NCBI GenBank assembly: GCA_019359045.1
Contig: JAHHIA010000001.1
Coordinates: 434,001-498,000, forward strand
Direction of reading: 5' to 3'
Length of the DNA stretch: 64,000 nucleotides
From: Scytolyngbya sp. HA4215-MV1
Lineage (GTDB): Bacteria > Cyanobacteriota > Cyanobacteriia > Leptolyngbyales > Leptolyngbyaceae
The notes under the pieces were generated by a model. The model was not told the origin of the DNA. It did no database searches and worked only from the letters and a program-made list of their open reading frames with translations. The first letter of the stretch is position 1; each line of letters starts with the position of its first letter. Positions 7,916 through 45,823 of this stretch are shown here, one piece after another. Both the position numbers and the translations under genes were made by a program.

Positions 7916-8089
7916 AGTTATACGAGTGGGCTTTTTAGCAGAATTGCATTGGAGCAATATTTATGAATGTCACAGATTGTGTTACAGAACTGAATCGGAT
8001 GATAAATAACCACTACTCCGATTGGGAGCGATTCGGAACCTAGAGTGTTTAGAGTTTTGGGATTCTACCAAAAGCATGAGGAAGAAAAG

Positions 8090-8869
8090 ATGATGTCGTC
8101 GGCTTGGTTAGACAGAGGTTTTTGCCAGAAAAGCGTCATTGGTTGTCCGGTTACTGCTTTGCCTTTTGATCATCAAATCGATTTAATGGTGAAGTGGGCA
8201 AAGAACCGAATTAGTAAGACCGTTTGTATCGCGAATGTTCACATGCTTATAGAAGCACATCGCGATCCAACTTTTGCTTCCGTCTTAACGAGTGCAGATT
8301 TAGTTGCCCCTGATGGTATGCCCCTAGTCTGGATGCTGAGGCTACTAGGGCAGTCAGAACAAGATCGGGTTGCCGGTTTGGATGTCCTTTCCGCTTTGTG
8401 TAAACAGGCTTCTGTTGAAAAAGTCTCTGTTTTCTTCTTGGGTTCCCACAAGATCATTCTTGAGAAGATGAAAGCTAGATTAGGAAATGAGTTTCCAGAT
8501 CTGGAGATTGCAGGGATGGAACCGTTGCCTTTTCGTCCACTAACTCAGCAAGAGGATGCAGAAATTATCCAAAAGCTCAACGAAAGTGGCGCCGGAGTTG
8601 TTTTTGTTTCACTCGGGTGTCCAAAGCAGGAGCTTTGGATTGCGGAACACAAAGATAAAGTACACGCAGTGATGATTGGTTTGGGAGGAGCCTTTCCTGT
8701 CTATGCAGGACTTCATAAGCGTGCACCTAAACTGATTCGTCAGGCAGGCTTGGAGTGGCTCTATCGACTATTGCAAGAACCAACTAGACTGTGGAAACGA
8801 TATGCTACTACGATTCCAGTTTTTGTCTGGTTAGCCTTTAAGCAATTGATGAATGATGCAACGGCATAA
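8090..8869 (+). CDS. WecG/TagA/CpsF family glycosyltransferase
   Basis: This protein (about 259 residues) belongs to glycosyltransferase family 26, which adds ManNAc-type or related sugars to a lipid-linked acceptor on the cytoplasmic side of the membrane. Diagnostic stretches are IANVHMLIEAHRDP, SADLVAPDGMPLVW (the conserved Asp-Gly), VFFLGS and VSLGCPKQELWI, followed by GLGGAFPVYAG. I chose ATG 8090, preceded by GAGGAAGAAAAG; an upstream GTG at 8045 would add 15 poorly family-like residues and has no ribosome site. It is the first gene of the large plus-strand locus and may act early in repeat-unit assembly. The exact sugar cannot be told. Confidence 0.93.
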   Translation: MMSSAWLDRGFCQKSVIGCPVTALPFDHQIDLMVKWAKNRISKTVCIANVHMLIEAHRDPTFASVLTSADLVAPDGMPLVWMLRLLGQSEQDRVAGLDVLSALCKQASVEKVSVFFLGSHKIILEKMKARLGNEFPDLEIAGMEPLPFRPLTQQEDAEIIQKLNESGAGVVFVSLGCPKQELWIAEHKDKVHAVMIGLGGAFPVYAGLHKRAPKLIRQAGLEWLYRLLQEPTRLWKRYATTIPVFVWLAFKQLMNDATA

Positions 8870-9789
8870 AAAATAGATCCGTAAACTTAGTACTGTATTT
8901 CCACAACTTTGGTCTCGTCTTAAGTTTTAGTGATCCCGGATGGGAAGCTCCATCGGTTTGCTAAGGATATGTTTAGTAGCGCATCAAAAGGATGACCGTG
9001 TGTTCACGCTGCTCTCGTCATTAAATGTTTCCTCTGTGGTCATTTTAAAACTCATAAACATAAACATGATGGGAATGTAGAAGACGTAACCACTTCAGAA
9101 GTCAGAACCGATGAAATTAGGTCATTTGTTCATAAAACAGGAGTTATGTATCCCTGCCAAATTTGGTACTGGGGACTGTTGAATTAGACAGAGTTTAATG
9201 AGTTCGAGCAGGTTATTCTAGCAGCACACGTTGATTAGGGAGGATATATTAACCTGGCAATGTAAGCTGCAAAAGCAAATTCAGTGTTCTCAAGGGTTCT
9301 AGCCCCAAAAGTGTAGGATCAATGATTGCCGATTTAGGCAGCAGGTACTGCTGTCTAAGGTTCTTACATTACATTGTCAAAAATAATGAACGCCTTCGCT
9401 GTAAGCGGATACAGTATTACACTTCACGATGCCTCACATAAGTTGCGTCCGGCTCCACTCAATAGTGCCCATGGGACCTTGTGTTTTACAGATGCAGTAA
9501 TCTGCGGGGAACTGCCCTCAAAAATCAAAATTCTAATTTACTGGAACTTACAGTAATTTTGAGACTGGCTCATGCAAATGAAAACGGTTGTTATATCTGG
9601 GACGAAGGAATCTTAAGAGGCGCTTGACGACCTGACTCCGAGCAGACACTTTAAAGGATTGTTTCGCGGATTTTTTCCAACCTTTAAATCAAGCCTTTGT
9701 TCATAAAGATTCAATCTAGATTCTGTTAAAATGGCGGATTTTTTATAGGATAAATTAAAATTAAAACACGTTGAAAGAAGGAAGAATCA
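8870..9789. other. 0.9 kb region without a recognisable gene
   Basis: No supported coding sequence is seen; one 60-codon frame at 9374-9556 needs a TTG start and has no ribosome site. Two segments have look-alikes elsewhere in the locus: 9301-9336 matches 20382-20417 at 27 of 36 ungapped positions, and 9566-9591 matches 19008-19034 with 14 identical leading bases. This suggests decayed or duplicated regulatory DNA ahead of the sugar-modification genes. Confidence 0.5.
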
Positions 9790-11016
9790 ATGTATGATTT
9801 TTTGGTCATTGGAGGCGGGATTGTAGGACTTTCCTCTGCAATGGCATTGGGACAAAGGTTTCCAGATGCTCGTATTGCTGTTTTAGAAAAAGAAGCTCAA
9901 TGGGCACATCATCAAACAGGTAATAATAGTGGTGTTATTCACTCTGGTATTTATTACAAGCCTGGTAGCCTAAAGGCCAAGCTTTGTCAAACAGGTTGTG
10001 ATTCAATCATTAAATTTTGCCAAATACATGAAATTCCTTATGATGTATGCGGTAAAGTCATCGTTGCAACAGAACCATCAGAATTAGGCCGTTTAGATGC
10101 CTTATATCAACGTGGATTAGAAAATGGTGTAAAGGTTGTCAGGCTAACTTCGCAGCAGGTTAGGGAGATTGAGCCCCATGTTAATTGCTTGGCAGGAATT
10201 CGAGTATTTTCAACGGGTATCGTTGACTACAAACAAGTTTGCCAAAAATATGCTGAGTTAATTAAACGGCAGGGAGGGCAGCTTTACCTCAATACGAAAG
10301 TTGAAAAGATTACTGTATTGAGCAATAGTCAAATATTGGAAACCAATAATGGAACTTTTGAAACAAAGTTTTTAATTAATTGTGCTGGATTGCATAGCGA
10401 TCGTGTTGCGAAACTTGATGCAATTGATCCTCAAGCAAAAATTGTTCCTTTTCGAGGCGAATACTACGAACTTAAACCCGAAAAGAGATATCTGGTTAAG
10501 CATCTGATTTATCCCGTTCCCAACCCAAACTTTCCCTTTTTGGGAGTTCACTTTACTCGCATGATTGATGGCAGCATTCATGCAGGACCTAACGCAGTTC
10601 TGAGTTTCAAGCGTGAGGGCTACCATAAAACAGACTTTGATCTGAGAGATTTTGCAGATGTTCTTACCTATCCTGCCTTCTGGAAACTTGCAATAAAACA
10701 TGCTGACGAAGGCATGCGAGAAATGATTCGATCCTTTTTCAAAACAGCTTTTGTTCATAGTTTGCAAAGGTTAATTCCAGAAGTCCAAGCAGAAGATGTT
10801 ATCCCAGCTCATGCAGGTGTGAGAGCTCAAGCATTAATGAACGATGGTAAACTGGTCGATGACTTTTTGATCGTCAAAGGTGGTCGTTCAGTGCATGTTT
10901 GTAATGCGCCTTCTCCTGCTGCCACTTCTTCTCTAGAAATTGGCAAAGCGATCGCCAATCAAATTCCTGACTTTTCTTGTTTAAAAACTGTTGTAAATAC
11001 AGAGAAAACACGATGA
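9790..11016 (+). CDS. lhgO: LhgO-like FAD-dependent L-2-hydroxyglutarate oxidase family protein
   Basis: This 408-residue protein is a DAO-superfamily flavoprotein. The FAD-binding dinucleotide fold is at the extreme N-terminus (FLVIGGGIVGLSSAMAL), and HHQTGNNSGVIHSGIYY is typical of L-2-hydroxyglutarate oxidases. Other family stretches are VPFRGEYYEL, IYPVPNPNFPFLGVHFT and VIPAHAGVRAQA near the C-terminus. LhgO normally oxidises L-2-hydroxyglutarate to 2-oxoglutarate and passes electrons to the quinone pool. Here the gene overlaps the next epimerase gene by 4 nt (ATGA), so it is translationally coupled to sugar-nucleotide genes. It may therefore act on a different 2-hydroxy acid or sugar, but that is inference. 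Confidence 0.88.
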   Translation: MYDFLVIGGGIVGLSSAMALGQRFPDARIAVLEKEAQWAHHQTGNNSGVIHSGIYYKPGSLKAKLCQTGCDSIIKFCQIHEIPYDVCGKVIVATEPSELGRLDALYQRGLENGVKVVRLTSQQVREIEPHVNCLAGIRVFSTGIVDYKQVCQKYAELIKRQGGQLYLNTKVEKITVLSNSQILETNNGTFETKFLINCAGLHSDRVAKLDAIDPQAKIVPFRGEYYELKPEKRYLVKHLIYPVPNPNFPFLGVHFTRMIDGSIHAGPNAVLSFKREGYHKTDFDLRDFADVLTYPAFWKLAIKHADEGMREMIRSFFKTAFVHSLQRLIPEVQAEDVIPAHAGVRAQALMNDGKLVDDFLIVKGGRSVHVCNAPSPAATSSLEIGKAIANQIPDFSCLKTVVNTEKTR

Positions 11017-12047
11017 AAATATTAGTTACTGGAACTGAAGGATATCTTGGCTCCTTATTAGCTCCCATTCTCTTGAAAAAAGGATACGAGGTTCTTGCCG
11101 TAGATACCGGTTTCTACAAAGTGGGCTGGCTATATAATGGCACTGAACTCACAGCCCAAACTCTTAACAAAGACATTCGCAATCTCACCAGTGAAGATCT
11201 GCAAGGGATTGATGCAGTTGTCCACATGGCTGAGTTGTCTAACGATCCTGCAGGTCAACTTTCACCCAACATTACTTACGATATTAATCACAAAGGGTCT
11301 GTTCATTTGGCAAACCTTGCGAAAGCATCGGGTGTGCGCCGTTTCGTCTACATGTCATCTTGCAGCGTTTATGGTTTGGCAACGGAAGGAGATGTTACGG
11401 AAGAGTCTCCCGTGAATCCCCAAACTATCTATGCAATTTGTAAAACGCTTGTAGAACGTGATCTCCAGACAATGGCGGATGATAACTTTTCTCCTACCTT
11501 TATGCGCAATGCCACCGCTTTTGGGGCATCTCCTAGAATGCGCTTTGACATCGTTTTGAATAACCTATCAGGATACGCTTGGACAACTCAAGAAATTAAA
11601 ATGTCCAGTGATGGGACTCCCTGGCGTCCATTGGTGCATGCACTTGACATTTGCAAAGCTATTGTTTGTGCTCTAGAAGCCCCACGAGATCTTATTCATA
11701 ATCAAATCTTTAACGTGGGTGATACCTCATTCAACTATCAAGTAAAAGACATTGCTGAAATCGTTGCTGATGTTTTCAAAGGATGCCAACTTAGCTTTGG
11801 GGATAGCAGTACAGACAACCGTAGCTATCGAGTTTCCTTTGAAAAAATTAATCAGTTATTACCTGGATTCAAGTGTGAGTGGGATGCTAGACGAGGTGCT
11901 CAGCAGCTGTTTGATGTGTTTACTCAAATTGACATGTCTGAAGAAACATTTTTCTTCAGAGGATTCACACGCTTAAAACAATTAGAATATTTAATTCGCA
12001 CTCAACAAATTAATCCCGATTTCTTCTGGACTAAAAAGCCATCATAA
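11013..12047 (+). CDS. NAD-dependent sugar-nucleotide epimerase/dehydratase (SDR), copy 1
   Basis: This 344-residue extended SDR enzyme starts MKILVTGTEGYLG, giving the TGxxGxxG nucleotide-binding motif. It continues with HMAELSNDP, SSCSVYG and the catalytic YAICK (Tyr-x3-Lys). FMRNATAFGASPRMRFDIVL and DGTPWRPLVHALDICKA are substrate-domain stretches shared with the paralogue at 19139. ATG 11013 overlaps the lhgO stop as ATGA and is preferred over an upstream in-frame start at 10977 inside lhgO. It presumably epimerises or dehydrates an NDP-hexose for the surface glycan. A broken third copy lies at 17745-17885. Confidence 0.93.
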   Translation: MKILVTGTEGYLGSLLAPILLKKGYEVLAVDTGFYKVGWLYNGTELTAQTLNKDIRNLTSEDLQGIDAVVHMAELSNDPAGQLSPNITYDINHKGSVHLANLAKASGVRRFVYMSSCSVYGLATEGDVTEESPVNPQTIYAICKTLVERDLQTMADDNFSPTFMRNATAFGASPRMRFDIVLNNLSGYAWTTQEIKMSSDGTPWRPLVHALDICKAIVCALEAPRDLIHNQIFNVGDTSFNYQVKDIAEIVADVFKGCQLSFGDSSTDNRSYRVSFEKINQLLPGFKCEWDARRGAQQLFDVFTQIDMSEETFFFRGFTRLKQLEYLIRTQQINPDFFWTKKPS

Positions 12048-12148
12048 GCATGGCTAAAAACTGAATTAAAAGCGAGGCTTACAAGCCATAATTTTACCCA
12101 GACATGCTGTCAAGGACAGCTTTTCTCACCAGTCACATTTGGAGTTAT

Positions 12149-12712
12149 ATGCTTTTCAAGGAAACCAAACTGAAAGGTTCTTATATTATTGACATCGAGC
12201 CTAGGGAGGATAATCGAGGTTTCTTTGCCCGTGCTTTCTGCCAAAAGGAATTTGAGGATCATGGGCTCAAATCGAGTATTGCACAGTCCAACATTGCCTT
12301 TAGTCTTAAGAAAGGTACGCTGCGAGGCATGCACTTTCAATATCCACCCGCAGCCGAAACCAAATTAGTCCGTTGTACACGGGGAGGGATTCTAGACATC
12401 ATTGTTGACCTTCGCCCTGAAAGCTCTACCTATCTGCAACATATTTCCGTCGAGTTAAATGAAGATAACTATCGCGCCCTCTATGTACCTGAGCGCTTTG
12501 CTCATGGGTATCAAGTCTTATGCGACAACACAGAAACCAGTTATCAAGTAGGGGAATTTTATACACCTGGTGCTGAAGGGGGGTTAATGTATGACGATCC
12601 TAGATTAGGACTCGAATGGCCCTTGCCAGTTTCGGTGATTTCTGAAAAAGATCAAAAGTTTCGATCTCTTCAAGAGATCGAAACTGAACTCGAGCAAAGA
12701 ATGTCTGTCTGA
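12149..12712 (+). CDS. rfbC: dTDP-4-dehydrorhamnose 3,5-epimerase-like protein (RmlC/RfbC)
   Basis: This protein of about 187 residues is a cupin of the RmlC family. It shows GYIIDIEPREDNRGFFAR-type N-terminal residues, the catalytic-histidine stretch GTLRGMHFQ, LVRCTRGGILDIIVDLRP and LYVPERFAHGYQVL. It epimerises C3 and/or C5 of NDP-4-keto-6-deoxyhexoses. ATG 12149 has GGAG 5 nt upstream; starting at 12104 would add 15 non-conserved residues. Dedicated rmlA, rmlB and rmlD genes are absent from the window, whereas an RfbF-type cytidylyltransferase is present, so the substrate might be a CDP-linked sugar. Confidence 0.93.
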   Translation: MLFKETKLKGSYIIDIEPREDNRGFFARAFCQKEFEDHGLKSSIAQSNIAFSLKKGTLRGMHFQYPPAAETKLVRCTRGGILDIIVDLRPESSTYLQHISVELNEDNYRALYVPERFAHGYQVLCDNTETSYQVGEFYTPGAEGGLMYDDPRLGLEWPLPVSVISEKDQKFRSLQEIETELEQRMSV

Positions 12713-12798: not shown

Positions 12799-14124
12799 AT
12801 GATGATGGTTGATAACGCGCTAAAAGCACGTGAGGAGCAAGGCAAACCAATCCGTGTTGGTATGATCGGAGCAGGTTTTATGGGGCAGGGACTGACAAAC
12901 CAAATTGTAAACAGTATTCCTGGGATGCGTATGGTTGCAGTATACAGTCGCAACCTAGATAAAGGATTTCATGTCTTTGGTTACGCTGGTCTAGAAGACA
13001 TCCTTGTTGCTACTACCCAGACTCAACTAGATGATGCCATTCATGCAGGAAAACCTGTGGTTACAGAAGACGCATTCCTGTTGTGTCGATCCGAGCATAT
13101 TGACGTATTGGTTGATGTTACTGGTTCGGTTGAGTTTGGTGCTCACGTTGTTCTTGAAGCATTCAAATATGGCAAAGATGTAGTGCTGATGAACGCTGAG
13201 TTAGATGCAACTATTGGACCTATCCTGCAGACTTACGCCAAGAAGCATAATGTTATTTTGTCGGCTTGCGATGGGGATGAACCTGGAGTTCAAATGAATC
13301 TCTATCGCTGGGTGAAAGGTTTGGGTCTTATCCCACGAGTTATGGGAAACATTAAAGGATTGCAGGATCGATACCGTAATCCAACTACCCAGCAAGGCTG
13401 GGCTGAGCGGTGGGGACAAAACGCTGCAATGGTTACTAGCTTTGCGGATGGCTCCAAAATCAGCTTCGAGCAGACGATCGTCGCCAATGCAACTGGCTTC
13501 GTGGTCCAGTCTAGAGGTATGTCTAGAGGTGTGGAATATCGTGGCGATATCATGAAAATCGGTGAGATTTATGACATTGATGAACTGCGTGAAAAAGGCG
13601 GCATTATCGATTATGTGGTTGGCACGCCTTTAACCAAAGTTTATTGTCTAGCCGAACATCCTGATCCCAAACAACAACATTATCTTAACCTCTATAAGAT
13701 GGGTGAAGGTCCTTTGTATTCCTTCTTTATTCCTTATCACCTCTGCCATTTTGAAGTGCCCAATGCGATCTCACGAGTAGTTTTGTTCCGTGATTGTCTG
13801 GCTCAACCTTTGGCTGGTCCAGTTGTAGAAGTATGTGCTGTCGCTAAGCGAGACCTCAAGGCTGGTGAGGTACTTGATGACTACGGAATGTATATGACCT
13901 ATGGCGAAGCAGTGAACGTTAACGAAATGAGTCAAATGCGCTATCTCCCTGAGGGGTTGGTGATGGGATGCAAACTCAAGCGGAATATTACGCAAGATGA
14001 TGTCATCACCTACGATGACGTGGAACTCCCTGCCGGTCGTTTGGCCGATCAGTTGCGTGCTGAACAATACCGTCATTTCCGTGGCGAATCCTGGCTTGAG
14101 GAACTACTTTGTGTTTCCGTATGA
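12799..14124 (+). CDS. Homoserine-dehydrogenase-like NAD(P)-dependent oxidoreductase with SAF domain
   Basis: This 441-residue protein has an N-terminal Rossmann domain (VGMIGAGFMGQG, near residues 20-30), a central DVTGSVEFGAHVVLEA region, and ACDGDEPGVQMNLYRWVKG typical of the homoserine-dehydrogenase-like/SAF group. The C-terminal part (about 340-435; VCAVAKRDLKAGEVLDDYG) is a SAF domain as in sialate synthases. ATG 12799 is preceded by AAAGGAGATT. Such proteins occur in sugar clusters next to SDR and RmlC-like genes, where they are thought to oxidise or reduce carbohydrate precursors. The substrate is unknown. Confidence 0.85.
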   Translation: MMMVDNALKAREEQGKPIRVGMIGAGFMGQGLTNQIVNSIPGMRMVAVYSRNLDKGFHVFGYAGLEDILVATTQTQLDDAIHAGKPVVTEDAFLLCRSEHIDVLVDVTGSVEFGAHVVLEAFKYGKDVVLMNAELDATIGPILQTYAKKHNVILSACDGDEPGVQMNLYRWVKGLGLIPRVMGNIKGLQDRYRNPTTQQGWAERWGQNAAMVTSFADGSKISFEQTIVANATGFVVQSRGMSRGVEYRGDIMKIGEIYDIDELREKGGIIDYVVGTPLTKVYCLAEHPDPKQQHYLNLYKMGEGPLYSFFIPYHLCHFEVPNAISRVVLFRDCLAQPLAGPVVEVCAVAKRDLKAGEVLDDYGMYMTYGEAVNVNEMSQMRYLPEGLVMGCKLKRNITQDDVITYDDVELPAGRLADQLRAEQYRHFRGESWLEELLCVSV

Positions 14125-14277: not shown

Positions 14278-15369
14278 ATGGATTGGGAGTTATCTAAGTT
14301 CCGAGCGGGTGACTTAGTTGAGGTACTGACTGAATCAGAGATTCTCCAAACGCTGGATGAGCATGGCTGCTTCGATGGTATGCCTTTCATGCCTGAAATG
14401 CTACAATTCTGCGGACAGCAACTACGTGTAAGTGCAGTTGCTCATAAAACCTGTGATACGGCCCGCCAGACTTGGACGGGGCGGCGGTTAAATCGCACAG
14501 TGCATCTTACGGAAGCCAGATGCAGCGGTTCAGCTCACGGGGGATGCGAAGCTGAATGTCTGATCTTTTGGAAGGACGCATGGCTCAAGGCAGTTGACCC
14601 AATGATTCAATTGCCTCCAAGTCAGCGAACAATGACAAGAACGGGCAGTATTTCAAATGCGGATCTTGCTAGACTCACGCGCATGACGCAACCAGATGTC
14701 AGCGACGAGGAACGGTTCTCCTGCCAAGCAACGCGAATGTGGGATGCGACTTCTGAGTTACATCCCTTGGATATACGTCAGTACGTATACGACGTAATTA
14801 CCCACAACCATTCAATTGGGCGAGTATTGCGCGTAACATGGATCGCGATGCTTAGATTTCATGTGTCGCGAGGCACGCTCTCCCGTGTTCCATTCGTTCA
14901 ACCACTGATTCGGTCACTTCTTGAAGTTACGCACAGGCTTCTGACAGGGCGCAAACCTCCGTATCTTAATCCAGCAATCAAACCCGGTGAGAAAACGCCA
15001 ATTGATGATGGTAGTATCGGCTTATCTGAAGGTGACTACGTCCGAATCAAATCGCAAAGCGAAATAGAGAAAACACTGGACTATCGTGGCATGAATCGCG
15101 GTTTGAGCTTCGATCGCGAAGAAATGGCACCGCATTGCGGCAAGATAGTTCGCGTCAAGAAAGTTGTAAAGAAAATCATTGATGAACCATCGGGCAAAAT
15201 GATTACGATGAAGTACCCTTGCATCATGCTGGATGGAGTAGTCTGTAATTCTGAATATGCGAGTTGTCGTATTAATTGTCCACGGCAAATCTACGCTTAC
15301 TGGCGCGAATTTTGGCTAGAACCAGTTGATTCTTCCATCGCACGCACTCATCTTGCCAAAAGACATTAA
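14278..15369 (+). CDS. Uncharacterised protein with two related Cys-rich domains
   Basis: I do not recognise this 363-residue protein. Its ends are related to each other: residues 6-106 and 248-351 share GDxVxxxxxSEIxxTLDxxG, then M/F-x-x-E-M-x-x-x-CG-x-x-x-RV, and a terminal C-x(6-7)-C-x3-C followed by an aromatic stretch ending W-L-x-x-V-D. Matching cysteines are 45/287, 82/323, 90/330 and 94/334; Cys31, Cys59 and Cys315 are extra. The middle (about 145-225) is different, with one Cys149 and a basic helix-rich region. No signal peptide or membrane helix is evident. The cysteines could bind a metal or an Fe-S cluster. It lies between sugar-precursor genes and the Wzm/Wzt exporter. A possible ribosome site, GAGGGAGCA, precedes ATG 14278. 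Confidence 0.85.
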   Translation: MDWELSKFRAGDLVEVLTESEILQTLDEHGCFDGMPFMPEMLQFCGQQLRVSAVAHKTCDTARQTWTGRRLNRTVHLTEARCSGSAHGGCEAECLIFWKDAWLKAVDPMIQLPPSQRTMTRTGSISNADLARLTRMTQPDVSDEERFSCQATRMWDATSELHPLDIRQYVYDVITHNHSIGRVLRVTWIAMLRFHVSRGTLSRVPFVQPLIRSLLEVTHRLLTGRKPPYLNPAIKPGEKTPIDDGSIGLSEGDYVRIKSQSEIEKTLDYRGMNRGLSFDREEMAPHCGKIVRVKKVVKKIIDEPSGKMITMKYPCIMLDGVVCNSEYASCRINCPRQIYAYWREFWLEPVDSSIARTHLAKRH

Positions 15370-15420: not shown

Positions 15421-16245
15421 ATGAAGACTAAAGGGTTAGTCATTGAAGCAGGTCGTACTGAGCGTCAGTATTGGAAAGACCTTTGGAATTACCGAGAACT
15501 ATTCTATTTTTTAGCTTGGCGCGATATTCTGGTTCGCTATAAGCAAACAGCAATTGGAATTGCCTGGGCGCTGATTCGTCCATTTCTAACAATGGTTGTT
15601 TTTACAGTTGTTTTTGGAAATTTAGCAAAACTGCCTTCAGACGGAGCACCTTACCCAATTCTAGTATTTTCTGCCATGCTTCCATGGCAGTTTTTTGCGA
15701 ATGCCTTGAGTGAATGCAGTAACAGCTTGATTGCTAATTCTAATCTGATTTCTAAGGTCTACTTTCCCCGGTTGATCGTGCCTTCTAGTGCAGTGCTTGT
15801 TAGTTTTGTAGATTTCATGATTTCTGGCATGATTTTGCTGGGTTTGATGGCCTGGTATAACTTTGTTCCTGATTGGCGAATTTTGCTGCTGCCGCTGTTT
15901 ATCCTAATTGCATTTGCAGCTGCAGTTGGGTCGGGTTTGTGGTTAGCGGCTTTAAACGTTGAATACCGAGATTTTCGCTATATCGTACCGTTTATCGTGC
16001 AGTTTGGCTTATATATCTCTCCGGTCGGATTTAGCAGCAGCATTGTGCCAGAGGAATGGCGTTTGCTCTACTCACTAAACCCAATGGTGGGCGTGATTGA
16101 CGGCTTTCGCTGGGCTATTTTAGGAGGAAATTCAAACATTTATTTACCTGGCTTCCTCTTATCTATGGGATTAGTGCTTCTTTTGCTGGTTAGTGGCATC
16201 TGGTACTTCCGCAAAATGGAACGGACGTTTGCTGACGTAATTTAG
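15421..16245 (+). CDS. wzm: ABC-2 type polysaccharide export permease (Wzm/TagG-like)
   Basis: This 274-residue membrane protein is the permease of an O-antigen/teichoic-acid type exporter. It starts with the amphipathic segment and WRDILVRYKQTAIGIAWALIRP, the family hallmark, followed by about six membrane helices. PMVGVIDGFRWAILG near the C-terminus is also typical. It lies 32 nt upstream of the ATPase gene and should form one transporter with it, moving lipid-linked glycan across the inner membrane. Confidence 0.95.
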   Translation: MKTKGLVIEAGRTERQYWKDLWNYRELFYFLAWRDILVRYKQTAIGIAWALIRPFLTMVVFTVVFGNLAKLPSDGAPYPILVFSAMLPWQFFANALSECSNSLIANSNLISKVYFPRLIVPSSAVLVSFVDFMISGMILLGLMAWYNFVPDWRILLLPLFILIAFAAAVGSGLWLAALNVEYRDFRYIVPFIVQFGLYISPVGFSSSIVPEEWRLLYSLNPMVGVIDGFRWAILGGNSNIYLPGFLLSMGLVLLLLVSGIWYFRKMERTFADVI

Positions 16246-16277: not shown

Positions 16278-17600
16278 ATGACTCATAGTATTATTCGCGT
16301 AGAGAACCTAAGCAAAAAATATGTCATTAGTCATCAAAGAGAAAGTTCCAGCGTGCATCAGTATAGGGCTTTGCGTGATGTAATTTCGGATAAAGTCAGA
16401 TCTCTAGGTCGGAACTTGGTTAAATCTGGAAAAAACAAGTTGCCAGACCCCACTTGCGAAGAATTTTGGGCTTTGAGAGATGTTTCGTTCGATATTCAAC
16501 AAGGTGAAGCAATCGGGATTATTGGACGGAATGGTGCAGGCAAATCGACGCTCTTAAAAATCCTGAGTCGCATTACCGAACCAACAGCGGGACGCATTGT
16601 TGTTCAGGGGCGTGTAGCAAGTCTTCTAGAGGTAGGTACGGGATTTCACCCAGAGCTAACGGGGCGGGAAAATATCTACCTCAACGGTTCTATACTAGGC
16701 ATGGCCCGATCTGAGATTCAAAAGAAATTTGATGAAATTGTTGCCTTTGCTGAGGTGGAGAAGTTCCTCGATACTCCGGTTAAGCGGTATTCGTCCGGAA
16801 TGTATGTGCGCTTAGCATTTGCAGTGGCAGCACATTTGGAGCCAGAAATCTTAGTGGTAGATGAAGTATTGGCAGTGGGTGATTCTGCTTTCCAAAAAAA
16901 ATGTTTGGGGAAAATGGGGGATGTGGCGACCAAAGAAGGACGAACTGTCTTGTTTGTAAGTCATAGCATGCAAGCAGTGTCCCAACTGACTAAGCGCTGC
17001 ATTCTCCTGTCCAAAGGCAACGTTCAGTTTGATGGGAACACCAATCGAGCGATCAATTTGTACCTAGCTAGCCCAAAAGATTCTGCCGAACAACCAGCTT
17101 ATTACCGAGCACCTGCTAACAAGACCGGCAACTACCTTGCTTGGGCAAAAGTCCACACATCTGAAGCAGAGGGGATTCACTGTTGGGGAAATTCGATTAC
17201 CTTTGAGTTTGCTCTACATATTACGCAACCTGATGCAAATCTGCTTTTTACTTTCCAGGTCGTAAGTGCTTTTCAACAACAGATCTGTAATTTTTGGTTT
17301 TCCGAACCCGACGCTCCTTTTTGTCGTGCTCCAGGAACATTTATCCTCCGCTGTGAAATTCCGAAATTCAGGCTTTATATGGGTTTATATACTTTGAAAG
17401 CCTGGATCTGCAATCCCCGTGACCAAACTGTTTTAGAAAAATTGATGGATATCTGTCCGTTTGAAATTACTATGCACAACTTTGAACGTCCGGAATATCA
17501 ATGGGGAGCTGATGAGTGTACCTATTTAGAGGATGCAGTATGGCAGATTGCTGAGACATGCAGCGAAAATAGTGATTCTATATCCGTTATAGCAAGTTAA
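16278..17600 (+). CDS. wzt: Polysaccharide ABC transporter ATPase with C-terminal glycan-binding domain (Wzt-like)
   Basis: The 440-residue protein has an N-terminal ATPase domain: Walker A GRNGAGKST (83-91), signature-like YSSGM (171-175), Walker B ILVVDE (191-196) and switch His in VSHSM (229). The insertion between residues 20 and 60 is usual for this subfamily. Residues about 270-430 form an extra beta-rich domain resembling Wzt_C, which in E. coli O8/O9a recognises the terminated non-reducing end of the chain before export. GGAAAGGA precedes the start. Its presence suggests export of finished, capped chains. Confidence 0.93.
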   Translation: MTHSIIRVENLSKKYVISHQRESSSVHQYRALRDVISDKVRSLGRNLVKSGKNKLPDPTCEEFWALRDVSFDIQQGEAIGIIGRNGAGKSTLLKILSRITEPTAGRIVVQGRVASLLEVGTGFHPELTGRENIYLNGSILGMARSEIQKKFDEIVAFAEVEKFLDTPVKRYSSGMYVRLAFAVAAHLEPEILVVDEVLAVGDSAFQKKCLGKMGDVATKEGRTVLFVSHSMQAVSQLTKRCILLSKGNVQFDGNTNRAINLYLASPKDSAEQPAYYRAPANKTGNYLAWAKVHTSEAEGIHCWGNSITFEFALHITQPDANLLFTFQVVSAFQQQICNFWFSEPDAPFCRAPGTFILRCEIPKFRLYMGLYTLKAWICNPRDQTVLEKLMDICPFEITMHNFERPEYQWGADECTYLEDAVWQIAETCSENSDSISVIAS

Positions 17601-18013: not shown

Positions 18014-18835
18014 ATGAACTTATCCAATCCTGAAGTTTCCAACAAAATTAAGCAATATTGGTGTGAGCGTGCAGGACAAACGGATCCAGCCTCTTTGCAA
18101 GCAACGACATACGATGTTTATCTTCGCGAACTTGAAATTACTAAATTGAAGGAGAAAATTTCAGCCGCTTCTCTGCCTCATGGCTCTACAGTAGTTGATT
18201 TGGGCTGTGGAGATGGTTATTCAACGATGAGCCTCGCCTCCGCGTTCCCGGATGTTCGTTTTATCGGTATAGATTGGAGCGAGGAGATGTTAACTTTGGC
18301 TGAGAAGAAACTCTCGGTTCAGTTAGATCTTCTTGACAGAGTTTCATTTCGTGTCGGCGATATGAGGAGTTTATCTTCCAGTCTTCAGGCCGAAAGATTT
18401 GATGTTTTCTTGACCATGCGCAGCCTAATAAATCTAACATCCTCTGCGGAGCAATACAACACAATATCGCAGATTGCAGAGCACCTAAAGCCTGGTGGCT
18501 ACTATTTTTGTATAGAGAACTTTATGCAAGGACAAAACAACTTTAATCGTATGCGCGTAACTATGGGACTTCCGGAAATCCCGGTGCGATGGCACAACCA
18601 TTTCTTCGAGGAAGAAGAGTTCTTGGTAGAAACCTCAAAATTTTTCGATCCCGTAATTATAGATAGTTTCTTGAGCTCATATTACCTTGCGACGCGGGTT
18701 ATTTATTCGGCTGGGTGTCACTTGATGGGCGAAGAACCAGATTATTTTCACCCAATCCATCAGACTGCCGGACAGCTTCCAGTAATTGGCGATTTTAGTC
18801 CTATTAAACTTGCGAGTATGAGACGAAAACTTTAA
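18014..18835 (+). CDS. Class I SAM-dependent methyltransferase
   Basis: This 273-residue enzyme has the SAM-binding motif I VVDLGCGDGYSTM (about residues 60-72), an acidic motif II (FIGIDWSEEM), RVGDMRSL and FDVFLTMRSLINL, all typical of small-molecule methyltransferases. It starts with MNLSNPEVSNKIKQYW and has an upstream AGAAGGAGCAAC. Located among sugar-nucleotide genes, it may methylate a sugar of the surface glycan, or a glycan end as a chain cap. The target is inferred from context only. Confidence 0.9.
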   Translation: MNLSNPEVSNKIKQYWCERAGQTDPASLQATTYDVYLRELEITKLKEKISAASLPHGSTVVDLGCGDGYSTMSLASAFPDVRFIGIDWSEEMLTLAEKKLSVQLDLLDRVSFRVGDMRSLSSSLQAERFDVFLTMRSLINLTSSAEQYNTISQIAEHLKPGGYYFCIENFMQGQNNFNRMRVTMGLPEIPVRWHNHFFEEEEFLVETSKFFDPVIIDSFLSSYYLATRVIYSAGCHLMGEEPDYFHPIHQTAGQLPVIGDFSPIKLASMRRKL

Positions 18836-19138: not shown

Positions 19139-20200
19139 GTGCGCATCTTAATCACAGGACACCAAGGGTACATTGGCACCGTCATGGTGCCGATTCTGCT
19201 CAACGCTGGACATGAGTTAGTTGGACTTGACAGTGGCCTTTTTCGGGAGTGTACAATCACTGCGGACATTTGCAACATTCCTGAACTGCAGATGGACTTT
19301 CGGGATATTCAGCCGACTCACCTGCAGGGGTTCGACGCGGTGGTTCACCTCGCTGCGCTCTCCAACGATCCACTGAGCAACCTATTCCCGGAGATCACAA
19401 ACGAGATCAACTATACCGCCTCGGTTCGTCTTGCACAGCTTGCACAGAGCGCACGGGTGCAGCGCTTTCTCTTTGCCTCTTCCTGTAGCGTCTATGGCAA
19501 GCCAGCAGGCAATGACCTCGTCGATGAGACATCCGAAGCCGCTCCAAGCACACCTTACAATATCTCTAAGTTCCGTGTCGAGCAAGACGTGACGAAGTTG
19601 GCAAATGACGCGTTCAGCCCGACATTCCTTCGGAACGCGACAGCATACGGTGTCTCACCGTGCCTAAACTCTGAACTTGTGTTGAACAATTTGGTGGCAT
19701 GGGCATATACGAAGGGCTACGTCTATATCAAGAGTGACGGCTCCCCCTGGCGGCCTGTGGTTCATGTAGAGGACATTTCGCGCGCCTTCTTGGCAGTTCT
19801 TGAGGCACCCCGCGAAGTAATCCACAACCAAGTACTCAATGTAGGCTATAACGATGAGAACTATCGTATCTCCGAGCTGGCCGAGATTGTCCAACAGGTT
19901 GTTGCCGGATCGCAAATCGAGTATGCGAAGGACGGCGGACCGGATCTGCGATCGTATCGGGTGGACTTCGGGAAGATTCAACGCTTGTTGCCCGAGTTTA
20001 AGCCTCAGTGGGATGCACGGCGGGGAGTGGAGCAACTTTATGAGGCTTACCGCAGCAACAATCTTGTGTTTGATGATTTCGAGGGCCCACGGTTCAAGCG
20101 GATCGACCACCTGAAGCAACTACTGGCTACTAATCAGCTAGATGCTACCCTTCGCTGGCGCAAATCTGACGATTTGCCTGAAAAACAGTCTGTTTTTTGA
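19139..20200 (+). CDS. NAD-dependent sugar-nucleotide epimerase/dehydratase (SDR), copy 2
   Basis: This 353-residue extended SDR enzyme is a clear paralogue of the gene at 11013. It has TGHQGYIG at the N-terminus, HLAALSNDPLSN, SSCSVYG, catalytic YNISK, FLRNATAYGVSP and DGSPWRPVVHVEDISRA. The start is GTG 19139. Its base composition is visibly richer in G+C, with many codons ending in C or G, compared with the AT-rich cytidylyltransferase and PIG-L genes that follow. That suggests a separate, probably more recent, acquisition. It likely makes a related NDP-sugar, perhaps from the CDP-hexose supplied by the next gene. Confidence 0.92.
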   Translation: MRILITGHQGYIGTVMVPILLNAGHELVGLDSGLFRECTITADICNIPELQMDFRDIQPTHLQGFDAVVHLAALSNDPLSNLFPEITNEINYTASVRLAQLAQSARVQRFLFASSCSVYGKPAGNDLVDETSEAAPSTPYNISKFRVEQDVTKLANDAFSPTFLRNATAYGVSPCLNSELVLNNLVAWAYTKGYVYIKSDGSPWRPVVHVEDISRAFLAVLEAPREVIHNQVLNVGYNDENYRISELAEIVQQVVAGSQIEYAKDGGPDLRSYRVDFGKIQRLLPEFKPQWDARRGVEQLYEAYRSNNLVFDDFEGPRFKRIDHLKQLLATNQLDATLRWRKSDDLPEKQSVF

Positions 20201-20481: not shown

Positions 20482-21324
20482 GTGAAAGTTGTTTTATTTT
20501 GCGGTGGTTTAGGTACAAGAATCAGGGATTTTTCAGAAAAAATTCCTAAACCTATGATAAATATTGGGTATAGACCGATTCTATGGAATCTCATGAAATA
20601 TTATGCTCACTATGGCCATAAAGACTTTATTTTGTGCCTAGGCTACAGGGCTGATGCGATCAAAAACTACTTTCTCAACTACGATGAATGTCTCTCGAAT
20701 GATTTTGTTTTGTCTGGGGGGGGTAAACAGCTATTGATGCTGAATAGTGATATTCAAGAATGGAGAATCACTTTTGTAGATACGGGGCTTCATTCCAATA
20801 TTGGTCAACGTCTAAGGGCAGTTGAAAAACATCTGGCTGGTGAAGAATTTTTTCTGGCTAATTACAGTGATGGCTTAACAGATTTACCCCTCGATCTATA
20901 TATTGACAATTTCCTCAGACATGACAAGATGGCTAGCTTTGTGAGTGTTAAACCTACTCAGACTTTTCATATCATTTCTACAAGAGAGGACGGCATTGTT
21001 ACAAACATTAAGCATGTTAACGACTCCGAAACAAGAATTAATGGAGGTTTTTTTGCGTTCAAGACTGAAATCTTTAAAAATATCAATGAAGGCGAAGAAC
21101 TAGTCATCGAACCATTTCAAAGATTGATCGAAAGGGAAGAACTGATTGCCTACAAATACGATGGATTCTGGGCTTGCATGGACACCTTCCGAGACAAGCA
21201 AATGTTTGACGATATGTATTATCAAGGAAAATCTATTTGGGAGATCTGGAAATCTCCTGATAAGTTTGGAGCCAAATCACATACCCGAGAGCAAGCTCCA
21301 GTTCAGAAGGAATTAGTGACATGA
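20482..21324 (+). CDS. rfbF: Glucose-1-phosphate cytidylyltransferase-like nucleotidyltransferase (RfbF)
   Basis: This 280-residue sugar-nucleotide transferase starts VVLFCGGLGTRIRDFSEKIPKPM, the pyrophosphorylase signature with GGLGTR and the KP-M segment. It continues with GHKDFILCLGYRADAIKNYF and WRITFVDTG, as in RfbF, the enzyme that makes CDP-glucose from CTP and glucose 1-phosphate. The start is GTG 20482 after AAGGAGACTTAAA. No clear CDP-glucose 4,6-dehydratase (RfbG) is in the window, so the downstream step may fall to one of the SDR paralogues. The product could also be another CDP- or NDP-sugar. Confidence 0.9.
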   Translation: MKVVLFCGGLGTRIRDFSEKIPKPMINIGYRPILWNLMKYYAHYGHKDFILCLGYRADAIKNYFLNYDECLSNDFVLSGGGKQLLMLNSDIQEWRITFVDTGLHSNIGQRLRAVEKHLAGEEFFLANYSDGLTDLPLDLYIDNFLRHDKMASFVSVKPTQTFHIISTREDGIVTNIKHVNDSETRINGGFFAFKTEIFKNINEGEELVIEPFQRLIEREELIAYKYDGFWACMDTFRDKQMFDDMYYQGKSIWEIWKSPDKFGAKSHTREQAPVQKELVT

Positions 21325-21560: not shown

Positions 21561-22214
21561 TTGCTGAGGCTTAATATCGATAAAAATGCCAACTCAGTCT
21601 ATAAGATTCTATGCCTAGGATCCCACTGTGATGACATAGAAATTGGTTGTGGTGGCACAATTTTAAAACTCATAGAGGACTATAGAAATATTGTCTTTTG
21701 CTGGGTTGTTTTCAGTTCCAACGAACAGAGAGCAAAGGAAGCAATTCAAAGTGCCAACAACTTTCTGAAGGGAGCCAAAGTGGAAAACATTTTCATTAAC
21801 AACTTCAGAAATGGCTTTTTCCCTTTTATTGGTGCGGAAATCAAAGAATATTTTGAGCAGCTGAAACAAGAAATTTCTCCCGATCTCATTTTCACCCACT
21901 ATCGTCACGATCTACATCAGGACCACAGTTTGATTTCCGATCTCACCTGGAACACTTTTAGGAACCACCTTATTCTAGAATATGAAATTCCTAAGTATGA
22001 TGGTGATCTGGGATCTCCTAATTTCTTCGTTCAACTAGATGAGGATATTTGCCGCAGAAAAGTACAGTATCTTCTTGATGCTTTTGAGACAGAACGACAA
22101 AAGCAATGGTTTTCTGAGGATACTTTTTTGTCAATTATGAGACTGCGAGGGGTTGAATCCAACTCTCCAGGTAAATATTCTGAGGCTTTCTATTGTCGCA
22201 AAATTACCTTCTAG
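21561..22214 (+). CDS. PIG-L family (LmbE-like) deacetylase
   Basis: This 217-residue protein has the zinc-binding pattern of N-acetylglucosaminyl deacetylases: SHCDDIEIGCGG (His22, Asp24, Asp25) and the distal HYRHDLHQDH (residues 113-122). Such enzymes remove an acetyl group from GlcNAc-type sugars. The start is a TTG at 21561 with GGAG 7 nt upstream; no in-frame ATG is available near the family N-terminus. It follows the cytidylyltransferase and may de-N-acetylate a precursor or the assembled glycan. No signal peptide is seen, so it should be cytoplasmic. Confidence 0.88.
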   Translation: MLRLNIDKNANSVYKILCLGSHCDDIEIGCGGTILKLIEDYRNIVFCWVVFSSNEQRAKEAIQSANNFLKGAKVENIFINNFRNGFFPFIGAEIKEYFEQLKQEISPDLIFTHYRHDLHQDHSLISDLTWNTFRNHLILEYEIPKYDGDLGSPNFFVQLDEDICRRKVQYLLDAFETERQKQWFSEDTFLSIMRLRGVESNSPGKYSEAFYCRKITF

Positions 22215-22711: not shown

Positions 22712-24295
22712 ATGAAGAACCTATTAATGTCTTTTTTTAGAAGACGTTTTTTTCAAAAATCCATTCTTATATTGGCAACCTTTCTAATTACGCTAAGTGC
22801 TCTACTTACCCTTAATAAAGAGCCTAAGATCGTTAATAAACTATCTTCAATCATTAATAATATTCCCCAAAGAATATCAACAACTCAAAGAGTAATTAAG
22901 TTTAGTCTGATACCCTCTATCAGTGTCAATCCTACTAATGGTGTTAATAATAGTCCTGTAAAACCAATTCGATCTGCCGTTGCCACTGGACCACTACGAG
23001 TGAATCCCGCTAATTCACGGTACTTTATGGATAGCAGCGGTAGGACAATTTTTCTAGCTGGCTCCCATACCTGGGATAACCGTCAAGATATAGGAAATAA
23101 TGTTTTCGATTATCTTCGATACTTAACCCTACTTCAACAATACAATCACAATTTCATAAGACTCTGGGTTTTTGAACAACCCAAGGGCATTACGTCGTGG
23201 CCAGATCCGGCAAAAGCTATGGATACTCTAACACCTGAACTATTTGTTCGTAGTGGACCCGGAATGGCTGCAGACGGTGGCTTGAAGTTTGATTTAACTC
23301 GTTTCAACCCAGTACATTTTGACAGACTTCGCCAACGTATAATCGAGGCAGGCAATCGGGGAATATATACATCAGTTATGTTATTTGATGGTTGGAGTAT
23401 TGAGCTGAAAGCAGGTGGAGCCAATCCTTGGAAATACCACCCATTCAACAGGCACAATAACATCAATGGGATTGATGGTGACCCCAACAATGACCAAAGC
23501 GGAGCAGAGACACACACACTCCAGGTACCAGTTATTACTCAAGCTCAAGAAGCCTATGTCCGACAAGTGATCGATACGGTAAACGACTTAGATAATGTCC
23601 TTTACGAGATCAGTAATGAGAGCAACCCGGATTCTCAAGATTGGCAGTATCAAATGATTGCCTATATTAAGGCTTATGAAGCAACTAAACCCAAGCAACA
23701 CCCCTTAGGCATGACTGCCCCTTTTCCGAAGGGTTCAAACGACAGCCTATTTAATTCTCCTGCCGATTGGATCGCTCCCAGCGAGGAAGGTGGCTACAAA
23801 GACAATCCTCCCATAGCGACAGGAAAGAAAGTAATTATTAGTGATACTGATCATTTGTGGGGGATTGGAGGAGACCGAGCCTGGGCATGGAAAAGTTTTA
23901 CTAGAGGATTGAATCTGCTCTATATGGATCCTTGGGATGGTCAATTTATTCCTGTGAAACCCGACTCGGATCTTCGTGCAAACCTAGGCTATATTTTGTC
24001 TTTTGCTACCCGAATGAACTTATCAGCGATGGCACCTCGAGATGATTTGTCTTCAACTGGCTATTGTTTGGCAAATCCTATTTCTAAAAATCCTGAATAC
24101 TTGATTTATTCCCCCTCAGGGGGCAAGGTTACAGTCGATCTCTCAGCTGCTAAGGAAGATATAGCTGTGGAGTGGTTTAACCCAAACAGTGGGGTCGTAA
24201 CGAGCGGTATTAATACGTCAGGTGGAGGCAACCGAACATTCATACCTCCGTTTGATGGTGATGCTGTTCTATATATCCACAGTAGCCCAACTTAA
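22712..24295 (+). CDS. Membrane-anchored apiosidase/DUF4038-like glycoside hydrolase
   Basis: This 527-residue protein has one N-terminal hydrophobic segment (about 14-32), so it should be secreted or anchored. The catalytic part begins near GPLRVNPANSRYFMDSSGRT and has LAGSHTWDN, HNFIRLWVFEQP and YEISNESNPDS, where Glu303 fits the acid/base of a clan-A TIM barrel. The expected nucleophile region reads VIISDTDHLW (374-383), with Asp rather than an obvious Glu. The last about 90 residues (MAPRDDLSSTGYCLAN, then VEWFNPNSG) match the small beta domain often fused to DUF4038 proteins. It may trim or remodel the exported glycan. Confidence 0.82.
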   Translation: MKNLLMSFFRRRFFQKSILILATFLITLSALLTLNKEPKIVNKLSSIINNIPQRISTTQRVIKFSLIPSISVNPTNGVNNSPVKPIRSAVATGPLRVNPANSRYFMDSSGRTIFLAGSHTWDNRQDIGNNVFDYLRYLTLLQQYNHNFIRLWVFEQPKGITSWPDPAKAMDTLTPELFVRSGPGMAADGGLKFDLTRFNPVHFDRLRQRIIEAGNRGIYTSVMLFDGWSIELKAGGANPWKYHPFNRHNNINGIDGDPNNDQSGAETHTLQVPVITQAQEAYVRQVIDTVNDLDNVLYEISNESNPDSQDWQYQMIAYIKAYEATKPKQHPLGMTAPFPKGSNDSLFNSPADWIAPSEEGGYKDNPPIATGKKVIISDTDHLWGIGGDRAWAWKSFTRGLNLLYMDPWDGQFIPVKPDSDLRANLGYILSFATRMNLSAMAPRDDLSSTGYCLANPISKNPEYLIYSPSGGKVTVDLSAAKEDIAVEWFNPNSGVVTSGINTSGGGNRTFIPPFDGDAVLYIHSSPT

Positions 24296-37376: not shown

Positions 37377-37627
37377 ACAATCAAGAGGTCAAGAAGCACA
37401 AAAAAATACTGAAGCCTGAAAGGCGAAAATATTTGCTCCTTTCTTCGCCAATCTCGAGAATATTTTGAAAACAGTGAAAAGTCCCTTGTTGACATTGCTT
37501 GTGCCGTTATTTCCGATGGGTTGTTGTTCAAGCGGAGATTGAAAATATTTAAAGCCTCTTAGGACCTCAAGTTGTTTAAGCAGTGATGCTATTGAGGGTC
37601 TCAGGGCAGGGATTACAAAACACACCC

Positions 37628-44642: not shown

Positions 44643-45823
44643 TGGTCGATTCACAACCTCCGCCTGCTAATGAACCATCCGCCTTCAAGCCGACGGTTGT
44701 TTTGTTCAGTAGCCTGCTGTTGCCCCCCTCTCAAACTTTTATTAAGGCGCAGGGGGAAGAGTTGCGTCGGTTTAAGCCTTACTATGTGGGTTCTCGTTTG
44801 GTGAAAGGCTTGGATTTGCCCAGCGATCGTACCCTTGTGGTCAACCAGGGCAATCAGTTGGGCACGCTGGCAGAAGCCATTTTTAAGCTAACCGGGTTCT
44901 CGCCTCGGCTATATCAACAAGTACGGCGACTGAAGCCGGTTTTGTTGCATGCCCAGTTTGGCTTGAGTGGAGCCTTGGCACTTCCCTTAGCGCGATCGCT
45001 CAAACTTCCCCTGATTGTTCACTTTCGTGGTGCCGATGCCACCCTAAAAGATGAGTATGCTCGCTATGCATCGCTTAACCACTGGCTTTATTTACAGCGT
45101 CGTGAAACCCTTAAACGAGAAACTCGCCTGTTTATTACTGTCTCTCACTTTATTCGAGAGAAACTGCTAGAACAAGGCTTTCCACCTGACAAAATTGTTG
45201 CAATCTACAGCGGCATTAACGTTGCCGATTTCTCGCCTGATCCAGATCTCCCTCGTGAACCAGTGGTGCTGTTTGTCGGTCGTTTAACCGAAAAAAAAGG
45301 ATGCAAGTATCTGATCCAGGCGATGGCACAGGTGCAGGCAAAAATGCCTGAAGTTGAATTAGTGATCATTGGAGATGGTCCATTGCGATCGTCACTCGAA
45401 TCTCTTGCAGCACAACACCTCCGTCGTTACCAATTTTTGGGTGTGCAGCCAGCCTCTATCGTACGGCATTGGATGAATCGAGCGCGATTACTGGTAGCCC
45501 CTAGTGTGACTTCTATTCAGGGAGACTCAGAAGGCTTACCCAACGTCGTTTTAGAAGCTCAAGCTATGGCACTCCCTGTGGTCAGTACCATTCACGCTGG
45601 CATTCCAGAAGCGGTCACTCATGGAGAAACGGGTTTTCTGGCACCTGAACACAATGTAGATCAACTGACAGAGTATAGTCTGCGCCTCTTAAGAGACTGG
45701 GATCTCTGGCAACGCTTGAGTGCAAAAGGGCAGGCGCAAGTCCGATCTCAGTTCGATCGCTCCCGACAAACGCGAATTCTAGAAGATCTTTATCAAAAAA
45801 TCTTACATAAAGAGATCGAATGA
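44636..45823 (+). CDS. Family 4 glycosyltransferase (colanic-acid type)
   Basis: The 395-residue enzyme has LHAQFGLSGALALPLARSLK and VHFRGADATLKDEYARY, seen in colanic-acid WcaL/AmsK-type transferases. The donor half shows VLFVGRLTEKKGCKYLIQA, IIGDGPLRSSLE and APSVTSIQGDSEGLPNVVLE, giving the E-x7-E region. It overlaps both neighbours: 7 nt with the upstream gene and 4 nt (ATGA) with the downstream lyase-like gene, so the trio is translationally coupled. Confidence 0.93.
   Translation: MVMVDSQPPPANEPSAFKPTVVLFSSLLLPPSQTFIKAQGEELRRFKPYYVGSRLVKGLDLPSDRTLVVNQGNQLGTLAEAIFKLTGFSPRLYQQVRRLKPVLLHAQFGLSGALALPLARSLKLPLIVHFRGADATLKDEYARYASLNHWLYLQRRETLKRETRLFITVSHFIREKLLEQGFPPDKIVAIYSGINVADFSPDPDLPREPVVLFVGRLTEKKGCKYLIQAMAQVQAKMPEVELVIIGDGPLRSSLESLAAQHLRRYQFLGVQPASIVRHWMNRARLLVAPSVTSIQGDSEGLPNVVLEAQAMALPVVSTIHAGIPEAVTHGETGFLAPEHNVDQLTEYSLRLLRDWDLWQRLSAKGQAQVRSQFDRSRQTRILEDLYQKILHKEIE

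Follow-up and report, generated by a model that had tools for sequence, protein, structure and literature searches.

The gene at 14278..15369 of the window, the 64,000-nucleotide stretch of DNA analysed here, encodes a cysteine-rich (Cys-rich) protein belonging to a bacterial family whose link to surface-glycan loci is firm. In its predicted structure the protein consists of two SH3-like halves, and in its relatives the gene frequently adjoins a polysaccharide exporter, a link that is suggestive and weakens when lineages are collapsed hard. We tentatively read the protein, at distinctly less than even confidence, as a membrane-surface, metal-bearing adaptor of surface-glycan assembly or export and not as a nucleotide-sugar enzyme.

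The duplicated domain and its predicted fold

The open reading frame, which has a purine-rich stretch immediately 5' of it, and the parts of its product are as follows:

14278..15369, + strand: Cys-rich tandem SH3-like protein, 363 aa, ATG start (open reading frame and translation)
14278..14613, + strand: predicted N-terminal SH3-like half, residues 1-112, with C45, C59, C82, C90 and C94; pLDDT 88 when modelled alone
14722..14724, + strand: codon of C149 (motif CQ) in the middle region, invariant in 97/97 full rows
14794..14967, + strand: predicted helical hairpin, residues 173-230, two helices, acid-poor and cationic
15004..15333, + strand: predicted C-terminal SH3-like half, residues 243-352, with C287, C315, C323, C330 and C334; profile match to the N half

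An earlier note on this DNA had claimed that the two ends of the protein share a domain of about 100 residues, and this is borne out. Local alignment of residues 1-125 with residues 241-363 scores 110, whereas 2000 shuffles reach 53 at most, and a profile of the N half (53 sequences) matches one of the C half (38 sequences) with a probability of 99.7 and an E-value of 8.9e-26 over 103 columns. Judged by these alignments, the duplication within the Cys-rich protein is real and well above chance. In the AlphaFold2 model of the whole protein (mean pLDDT 92, pTM 0.89, from 64 sequences) the predicted secondary structure of residues 1-112 is in register with that of residues 242-352, strand for strand and helix for helix. 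Likeness of the two folds had been set beforehand as a test of the duplication; in the models they are alike, and both rank the same solved domain, the MZM-REP of Mind bomb 1, first in VIA comparisons. For the N half modelled alone the top match is 4xi7 (Z 7.3, rmsd 2.4 over 71 residues), and for the C half within the whole model it is 4xi6 (Z 7.5, rmsd 2.2 over 70 residues). Other SH3-type barrels, those of ribosomal proteins and of the nitrile hydratase beta subunit, come next at Z ~6, the latter with Z 6.0 over 84 residues. As VIA Z scores below 8 may reflect merely a common arrangement, and as these other barrels follow so closely, the likeness to Mind bomb is a statement about fold and not about kinship.

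Foldseek returned no match at E <=0.001 for the whole model or for the N half. Ranked first for the whole model was the nitrile hydratase beta subunit, with an E-value of 0.019, above that threshold, and low TM-scores of 0.18/0.29; for the N half Mind bomb ranked first (E 0.045), with nitrile hydratase beta among the best. The nitrile hydratase subunit has one SH3-like barrel, in contrast to the two predicted in the Cys-rich protein. In the Foldseek and VIA comparisons no catalytic fold was matched, the halves matching SH3-type barrels instead, and of 142 matches in a viral structure library none had E <=0.001.

Mind bomb carries ubiquitin-ligase parts, and these are not seen in the Cys-rich protein, which further differs from it in being bacterial, in falling under the cut-off of the corresponding Pfam family, SH3_15, and in its cysteine motifs and cationic hairpin. 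In Mind bomb, according to PMC11887331, the MZM and REP domains recognise short epitopes located in the intracellular domain of its membrane-bound ligand. By analogy, this comparison might indicate how the Cys-rich protein works; membership in SH3_15 is not claimed, its cut-off being missed.

The hairpin of the middle region has very few acidic residues: windows of 49 columns between positions 173 and 233 hold 3.0-3.3% D+E, against a median of 11.3% for windows along the protein. Of the 98 aligned family rows, 91 carry a net charge of at least +2 here and 5 a charge of zero or below. From this acid-poor, cationic composition we infer that the hairpin may be a peripheral membrane element. A transmembrane segment was considered and rejected, hydropathy being too low (the best 19-residue window has a median of 1.04 and exceeds 1.6 in 3/98 rows), and hence no membrane span is claimed for the protein.

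Spread of the family and its fixed residues

As the earlier note had remarked, no recognised family claims the protein. In Pfam none reaches its cut-off, the nearest being SH3_15 with 12.8 bits against a cut-off of 24 (E 0.15, residues 8-56). Among 64 family members SH3_15 is found at E <=0.1 in 17, the best at 1.7e-4, and twelve further Pfam families are each found in one or two members. NCBIfam yielded no family for the window protein at E 10 and none for the 64 members at E 0.01. The single PHROG match is weak (E 0.017, over residues 150-190) and is to a family whose function is unknown. Sequence comparison with solved structures gave nothing significant (E 1.1 and 1.3 for the window protein, none for the family profile), and literature searches for the family or the cassette found no publication naming such a Cys-rich protein. 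A phage origin was considered and discarded: tblastn at E 1e-5 found nothing among 50,697 phage records, and a search of IMG/VR with exact peptide patterns was equally negative.

The gene is not an oddity of one glycan locus: two peptide patterns, searched in one genome per species, recover at least 339 related loci in several phyla, recurrently in polysaccharide loci. The best 80 of these 339 were fetched. Because both patterns sit in the N half, part of the conservation seen there, in the two stretches searched, results from the way the loci were chosen. Sources of the family include Bradyrhizobium, Mesorhizobium, Nonomuraea, Actinomadura, Acidobacteriota, Verrucomicrobiota, Planctomycetota and Nitrospira, and its distribution across phyla is patchy. 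In counts that are lower bounds, since in many genomes part of the first-look candidates were scored, the family occurs in a single genome, the window's own, among the 386 of its phylum and, the seed being included each time, in 11/247 genomes of the phylum of the acidobacterial seed, 3/289 of the class of the Bradyrhizobium seed, 1/246 of the phylum of the planctomycete seed and 3/296 of the phylum of the Microbispora seed. The window genome carries PsaA/PsaB and is thus cyanobacterial; of 14 control genomes, Synechococcus alone matched. In the tree, however, the nearest neighbours of the window protein are three rows from Planctomycetota and one from Nitrospira, in a group of 5 rows with support 100/100. 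This grouping, together with the single cyanobacterial carrier, suggests that the window gene was acquired by horizontal transfer.

Departures from the two-domain form were also sought. A candidate single-domain member, L122 (171 aa, C half only), has a stop inside the match and may be a broken gene, and none was confirmed. In L009 and L019 long frames run upstream over the CMT (C-methyltransferase) and DUF4910 genes; because that overlap is in a different frame and start codons stand at the usual place, these are not taken as fusions. A Bradyrhizobium polysaccharide locus (L084) holds two diverged copies of the family, at 7934-9040 (+) and 11288-12433 (-).

The cysteines were counted in 98 aligned family rows, of which L123 duplicates L034 and L122 is partial. 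Present throughout are C59, C82, C90, C94 and C149 (97/97 rows) and C323 and C334 (98/98 rows). C45 is missing in 3/97 rows, C287 in 5/98 and C330 in 66/98 (it is present in 32), and C315 is lost in 41. The earlier note had matched four cysteines of one half with four of the other: the pairs 45/287, 82/323, 90/330 and 94/334 do align in the window protein, and the halves close, as it had described, with C-x7-C-x3-C (N half) and C-x6-C-x3-C (C half), but the four-plus-four symmetry fails family-wide. As C45/C287 and C330 are lost in some rows, the site is not simply a doubled four-cysteine unit. The cysteine pattern suggests a metal site; metal or Fe-S binding had been supposed. C59 and C149, both invariant and both lacking a counterpart in the repeat, may mark a second functional site, and R81, Q150, E303 and R343 are kept in every readable row. 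Four of the five rows that lack C287 carry a third cysteine between positions 323 and 334; in the 93 rows that have C287 this interval holds two cysteines in 56, three in 36 and four in 1. Hence the extra cysteine is a possible ligand replacement for C287, in what are five related rows.

Gene neighbourhoods and the possible link to exporters

The genes around the Cys-rich gene in the window are the following:

9790..11016, + strand: FAD oxidoreductase of the L-2-hydroxyglutarate oxidase family (lhgO; NF008726, E 4e-184)
10977..12047, + strand: SDR sugar epimerase/dehydratase (PF01370)
12104..12712, + strand: RfbC/RmlC-type 3,5-epimerase (PF00908, TIGR01221)
12799..14124, + strand: DXR-II-like oxidoreductase with DRL_cat and SAF domains (PF21135, E 1.3e-45; 3upl/3upy, E 5e-67)
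15421..16245, + strand: Wzm-type exporter permease (PF01061)
16278..17600, + strand: Wzt-type exporter ATPase (PF00005)
18014..18835, + strand: SAM methyltransferase (PF13649)
19139..20200, + strand: second SDR epimerase (PF01370)
20482..21324, + strand: RfbF-like sugar-1-phosphate cytidylyltransferase (1tzf, E 3e-49; TIGR02623 below cut-off)
21561..22214, + strand: PIG-L type deacetylase (PF02585)

The window thus has the DRL-type order, namely lhgO, SDR, rfbC, DRL, the Cys-rich gene, Wzm, Wzt, methyltransferase, SDR, RfbF-like and PIG-L. The position directly before Wzm/Wzt that had been reported is correct, Wzm beginning 51 bp downstream of the stop codon of the Cys-rich gene; for the Wzt-type ATPase, models of galactan and teichoic acid exporter ATPases score under their cut-offs. 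The locus also has the SDR, sugar nucleotidyltransferase and SAM methylase genes of a DUF4910-type cassette. The DUF4910/CA_C2195 carbohydrate cassette described by Das et al. (PMC4000134) is likewise presented, in part of that paper, as containing an SDR, a nucleotidyltransferase and a methylase, in several cases with an exporter, and section 10 and Table 2 there name no such Cys-rich protein. The DXR-II and DXR-II-like oxidoreductases DLO1 and DLO2, as defined in part of PMC3847144, resemble the upstream neighbour at 12799-14124, which matches PF21135 and 3upl/3upy, and not the Cys-rich protein itself.

This neighbour, a DXR-II-like gene of a reductoisomerase family, shares its polysaccharide cassette with lhgO, SDR and rfbC (9790-12712), and the same lhgO/SDR/rfbC/DXR-II-like order, plus rfbF, is also found on two Deinococcus plasmids (L136, L137). 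We know of no DXR-type rearrangement in branched-sugar synthesis.

We mapped 83 loci with profiles of twelve neighbour families; 63 of them have at least 7 kb on both sides and are termed well-flanked. Any exporter is found in 51 of the 63 well-flanked loci (Wzx in 46, Wzm in 5, Wzt in 4). The same 63 loci hold GT2 (56), RfbF-like nucleotidyltransferase (52), SDR (52), PIG-L (49), RfbC (43), CMT (36), DUF4910 (31, with no match in the window genome), UGT (15) and DRL (13). Two cassette types recur with an exporter and the NTP+PIG-L pair, one with CMT plus DUF4910 (30 loci) and one with DRL (11 loci), and nine of the 63 have no exporter, CMT, DUF4910, DRL or NTP+PIG-L pair. A phytanoyl-CoA dioxygenase-like gene (PF05721 in the one member scanned) also recurs near the family (cluster c10, 21/86 sources, e.g. 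L006 13097-14059).

In 48 of the 83 loci the Cys-rich gene has an exporter gene no more than 400 bp away: Wzx downstream in 29, Wzx upstream in 14 and on the other strand in 2 more, Wzt upstream in 2 and Wzm downstream in 1. Hence, both exporter types and both sides occur; 26 of the 29 downstream-Wzx cases represent one actinobacterial gene order. With members collapsed into 30 clusters at 70% identity, the labelled gene closest to the Cys-rich gene is an exporter in the equivalent of 13.2 clusters, where 5.9 are expected (z 3.5), and the cytidylyltransferase in 1.0, where 4.2 are expected; in the 11 clusters at 60% identity the exporter figure is 4.4 against 2.5 (z 1.4). A separate exporter test at 60% collapse gave P 0.15, under a gap rule that misreads overlaps. 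At 60, 70, 80 and 90% identity the z values are 1.4, 3.5, 3.8 and 4.2 for the exporter, 1.5, 1.6, 1.1 and 0.8 for a glycosyltransferase, and -0.3, -0.2, 4.8 and 6.1 for DUF4910. The fall of the exporter value from 70% to 60% is why we call this link only suggestive. DUF4910 genes lie within 400 bp of the Cys-rich gene in 25 of 38 cases, mostly in one actinobacterial order, and the other sugar enzymes rarely adjoin it. In evolutionary distances the protein tracks Wzx best within Actinomycetota (r 0.86) and, outside it, PIG-L best of seven partners (r 0.81); these correlations are weak support, as cassette genes also correlate through shared descent.

Sugar cassettes also occur without the Cys-rich gene, in three loci that are not a survey. 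One, L135 in the cyanobacterial genome G173, has SDR, CMT, NTP, PIG-L, RfbC and DUF4910, and no exporter-profile match within the 20 kb read. The other two are the Deinococcus plasmid loci (~21 kb each), with rfbF-lhgO-SDR-rfbC-DLO and no PIG-L, one of which has a flippase yet no Cys-rich gene. That sugar modules exist without the protein argues against a role as a step in nucleotide-sugar synthesis. At L135 (9723-19311 and 3210-8210) the CMT/DUF4910 cassette adjoins a TPR-glycosyltransferase and a TPS-domain (two-partner secretion) protein, and may perhaps serve the glycosylation of a secreted protein.

Not all copies belong to glycan loci; some divergent acidobacterial ones are found elsewhere. 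The divergent members L116-L121, L125 and L126 have no matches to the glycan profiles nearby; a ScdA_N-hemerythrin protein is found near L117 and L121, a P-type ATPase in L125 and L126 and a PepSY membrane protein beside L116, the Pfam names coming from scans of L117, L125 and L116.

Possible functions in glycan export

According to the adaptor reading, the Cys-rich protein would be cytoplasmic, at the inner face of the membrane, and its cysteines would hold one or more structural metal ions, most likely zinc. One metal site would lie mainly in the N half (C59/C45, C82, C90 and C94), and another could be formed by C323 and C334 with C287 or the added cysteine. The cationic hairpin would bind the anionic inner leaflet and the SH3-type barrels would bind peptide stretches in the exporter, be it Wzx or Wzm/Wzt, or in an adjoining glycosyltransferase, and the glycan bearing the cassette's modified sugar would thereby be passed to the exporter. 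We favour this reading because both halves rank the epitope-binding domains of Mind bomb 1 first, because an exporter of either type so often adjoins the gene, because at 70% collapse the nearest labelled gene is more often than expected an exporter and less often the cytidylyltransferase, because the L135 cassette lacks both an exporter match and the Cys-rich gene, because the hairpin's composition fits a membrane surface, and because ligand replacement could account for the third cysteine in four of the five rows without C287. It is weakened by the low VIA Z scores and the lack of a Foldseek match at E <=0.001, by the drop of the exporter link at 60% collapse and the single gene order behind most downstream Wzx cases, by the nine loci without cassette or exporter and the copies outside glycan loci, and by the Deinococcus locus that has flippase, RfbF and DLO and no Cys-rich gene.

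A further weakness is that the invariant cysteines, R81, Q150, E303 and R343 resemble an active site equally well. The protein could be an enzyme, dependent on a metal or on thiols, that acts on the glycan, or on the lipid-linked precursor of it, ahead of export. Its active site would lie between the halves and comprise C59 and C149 as well as conserved residues of the HKTCD, RCDG and CQAT motifs. The family-wide invariance of C59 and C149, neither with a repeat partner, and of Q150 and R81 would suit such an enzyme, as would the membrane-type hairpin, the tracking of PIG-L outside Actinomycetota and the closeness of DUF4910 genes, the last two subject to the limits given above. However, the halves match SH3-type barrels and no catalytic fold, and the adjoining sugar cassette varies between CMT plus DUF4910 and DRL, so that no single substrate is apparent; we regard this alternative as only slightly less probable than the adaptor. 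For a step in nucleotide-sugar synthesis, in partnership with RfbF, PIG-L, SDR, RfbC, CMT/DUF4910 or the DXR-II-like enzyme, one can cite the frequency of RfbF-like and PIG-L genes in the well-flanked loci. Such a role appears very improbable, as the Deinococcus loci and the cyanobacterial cassette L135 do without the gene, whose only match among the 386 genomes of that phylum is the window's own, and as it rarely adjoins those enzymes, DUF4910 excepted.

The richness in cysteine would also be expected of a redox- or metal-responsive regulator tuning glycan export to metal or oxygen state, and of four divergent copies two (L117, L121) lie near an ScdA-type hemerythrin protein and two (L125, L126) near a P-type ATPase. 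Those neighbours, however, are known from these four copies, and no DNA-binding or signalling domain rises above Pfam cut-offs, making a regulator improbable. Least probable of all is a hitch-hiking accessory gene with no glycan function or several unrelated ones: patchiness and the copies outside glycan loci would fit it, but the sequence is strongly conserved and the linkage recurs in several phyla.

The adaptor reading can be taken further, to a new class of bacterial adaptor in which Mind bomb-like paired SH3-type barrels with cysteine-held cores, sitting on the inner leaflet, couple a modified-sugar cassette to the locus's own Wzx or Wzm/Wzt; in this full form we consider it rather unlikely. 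Were the adaptor reading true, one small protein would join sugar modification to both main polysaccharide export routes, implying a shared recruitment step for two routes (Wzx and Wzm/Wzt) thought to be independent; to our knowledge no shared adaptor of both is known. Even if the protein is an enzyme, the family, with seven fixed cysteines and at least 339 loci, occurs in rhizobial, acidobacterial and actinobacterial surface-glycan loci among others. As the copies of Pfam and NCBIfam that were searched contain no model for it, glycan loci are incompletely annotated at a well-defined point.

The glycan region of the window holds further proteins of interest. After PIG-L, at 22712-24295, lies a secreted-looking protein with a DUF6298 and a collagen-binding-like domain, which also resembles apiosidases at a score below threshold (21.5 bits, the cut-off being 26.5); apiose is a branched sugar. 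At 37583-39862 and 45820-47778 there are heparinase II/III-like and pectate-lyase-like proteins.
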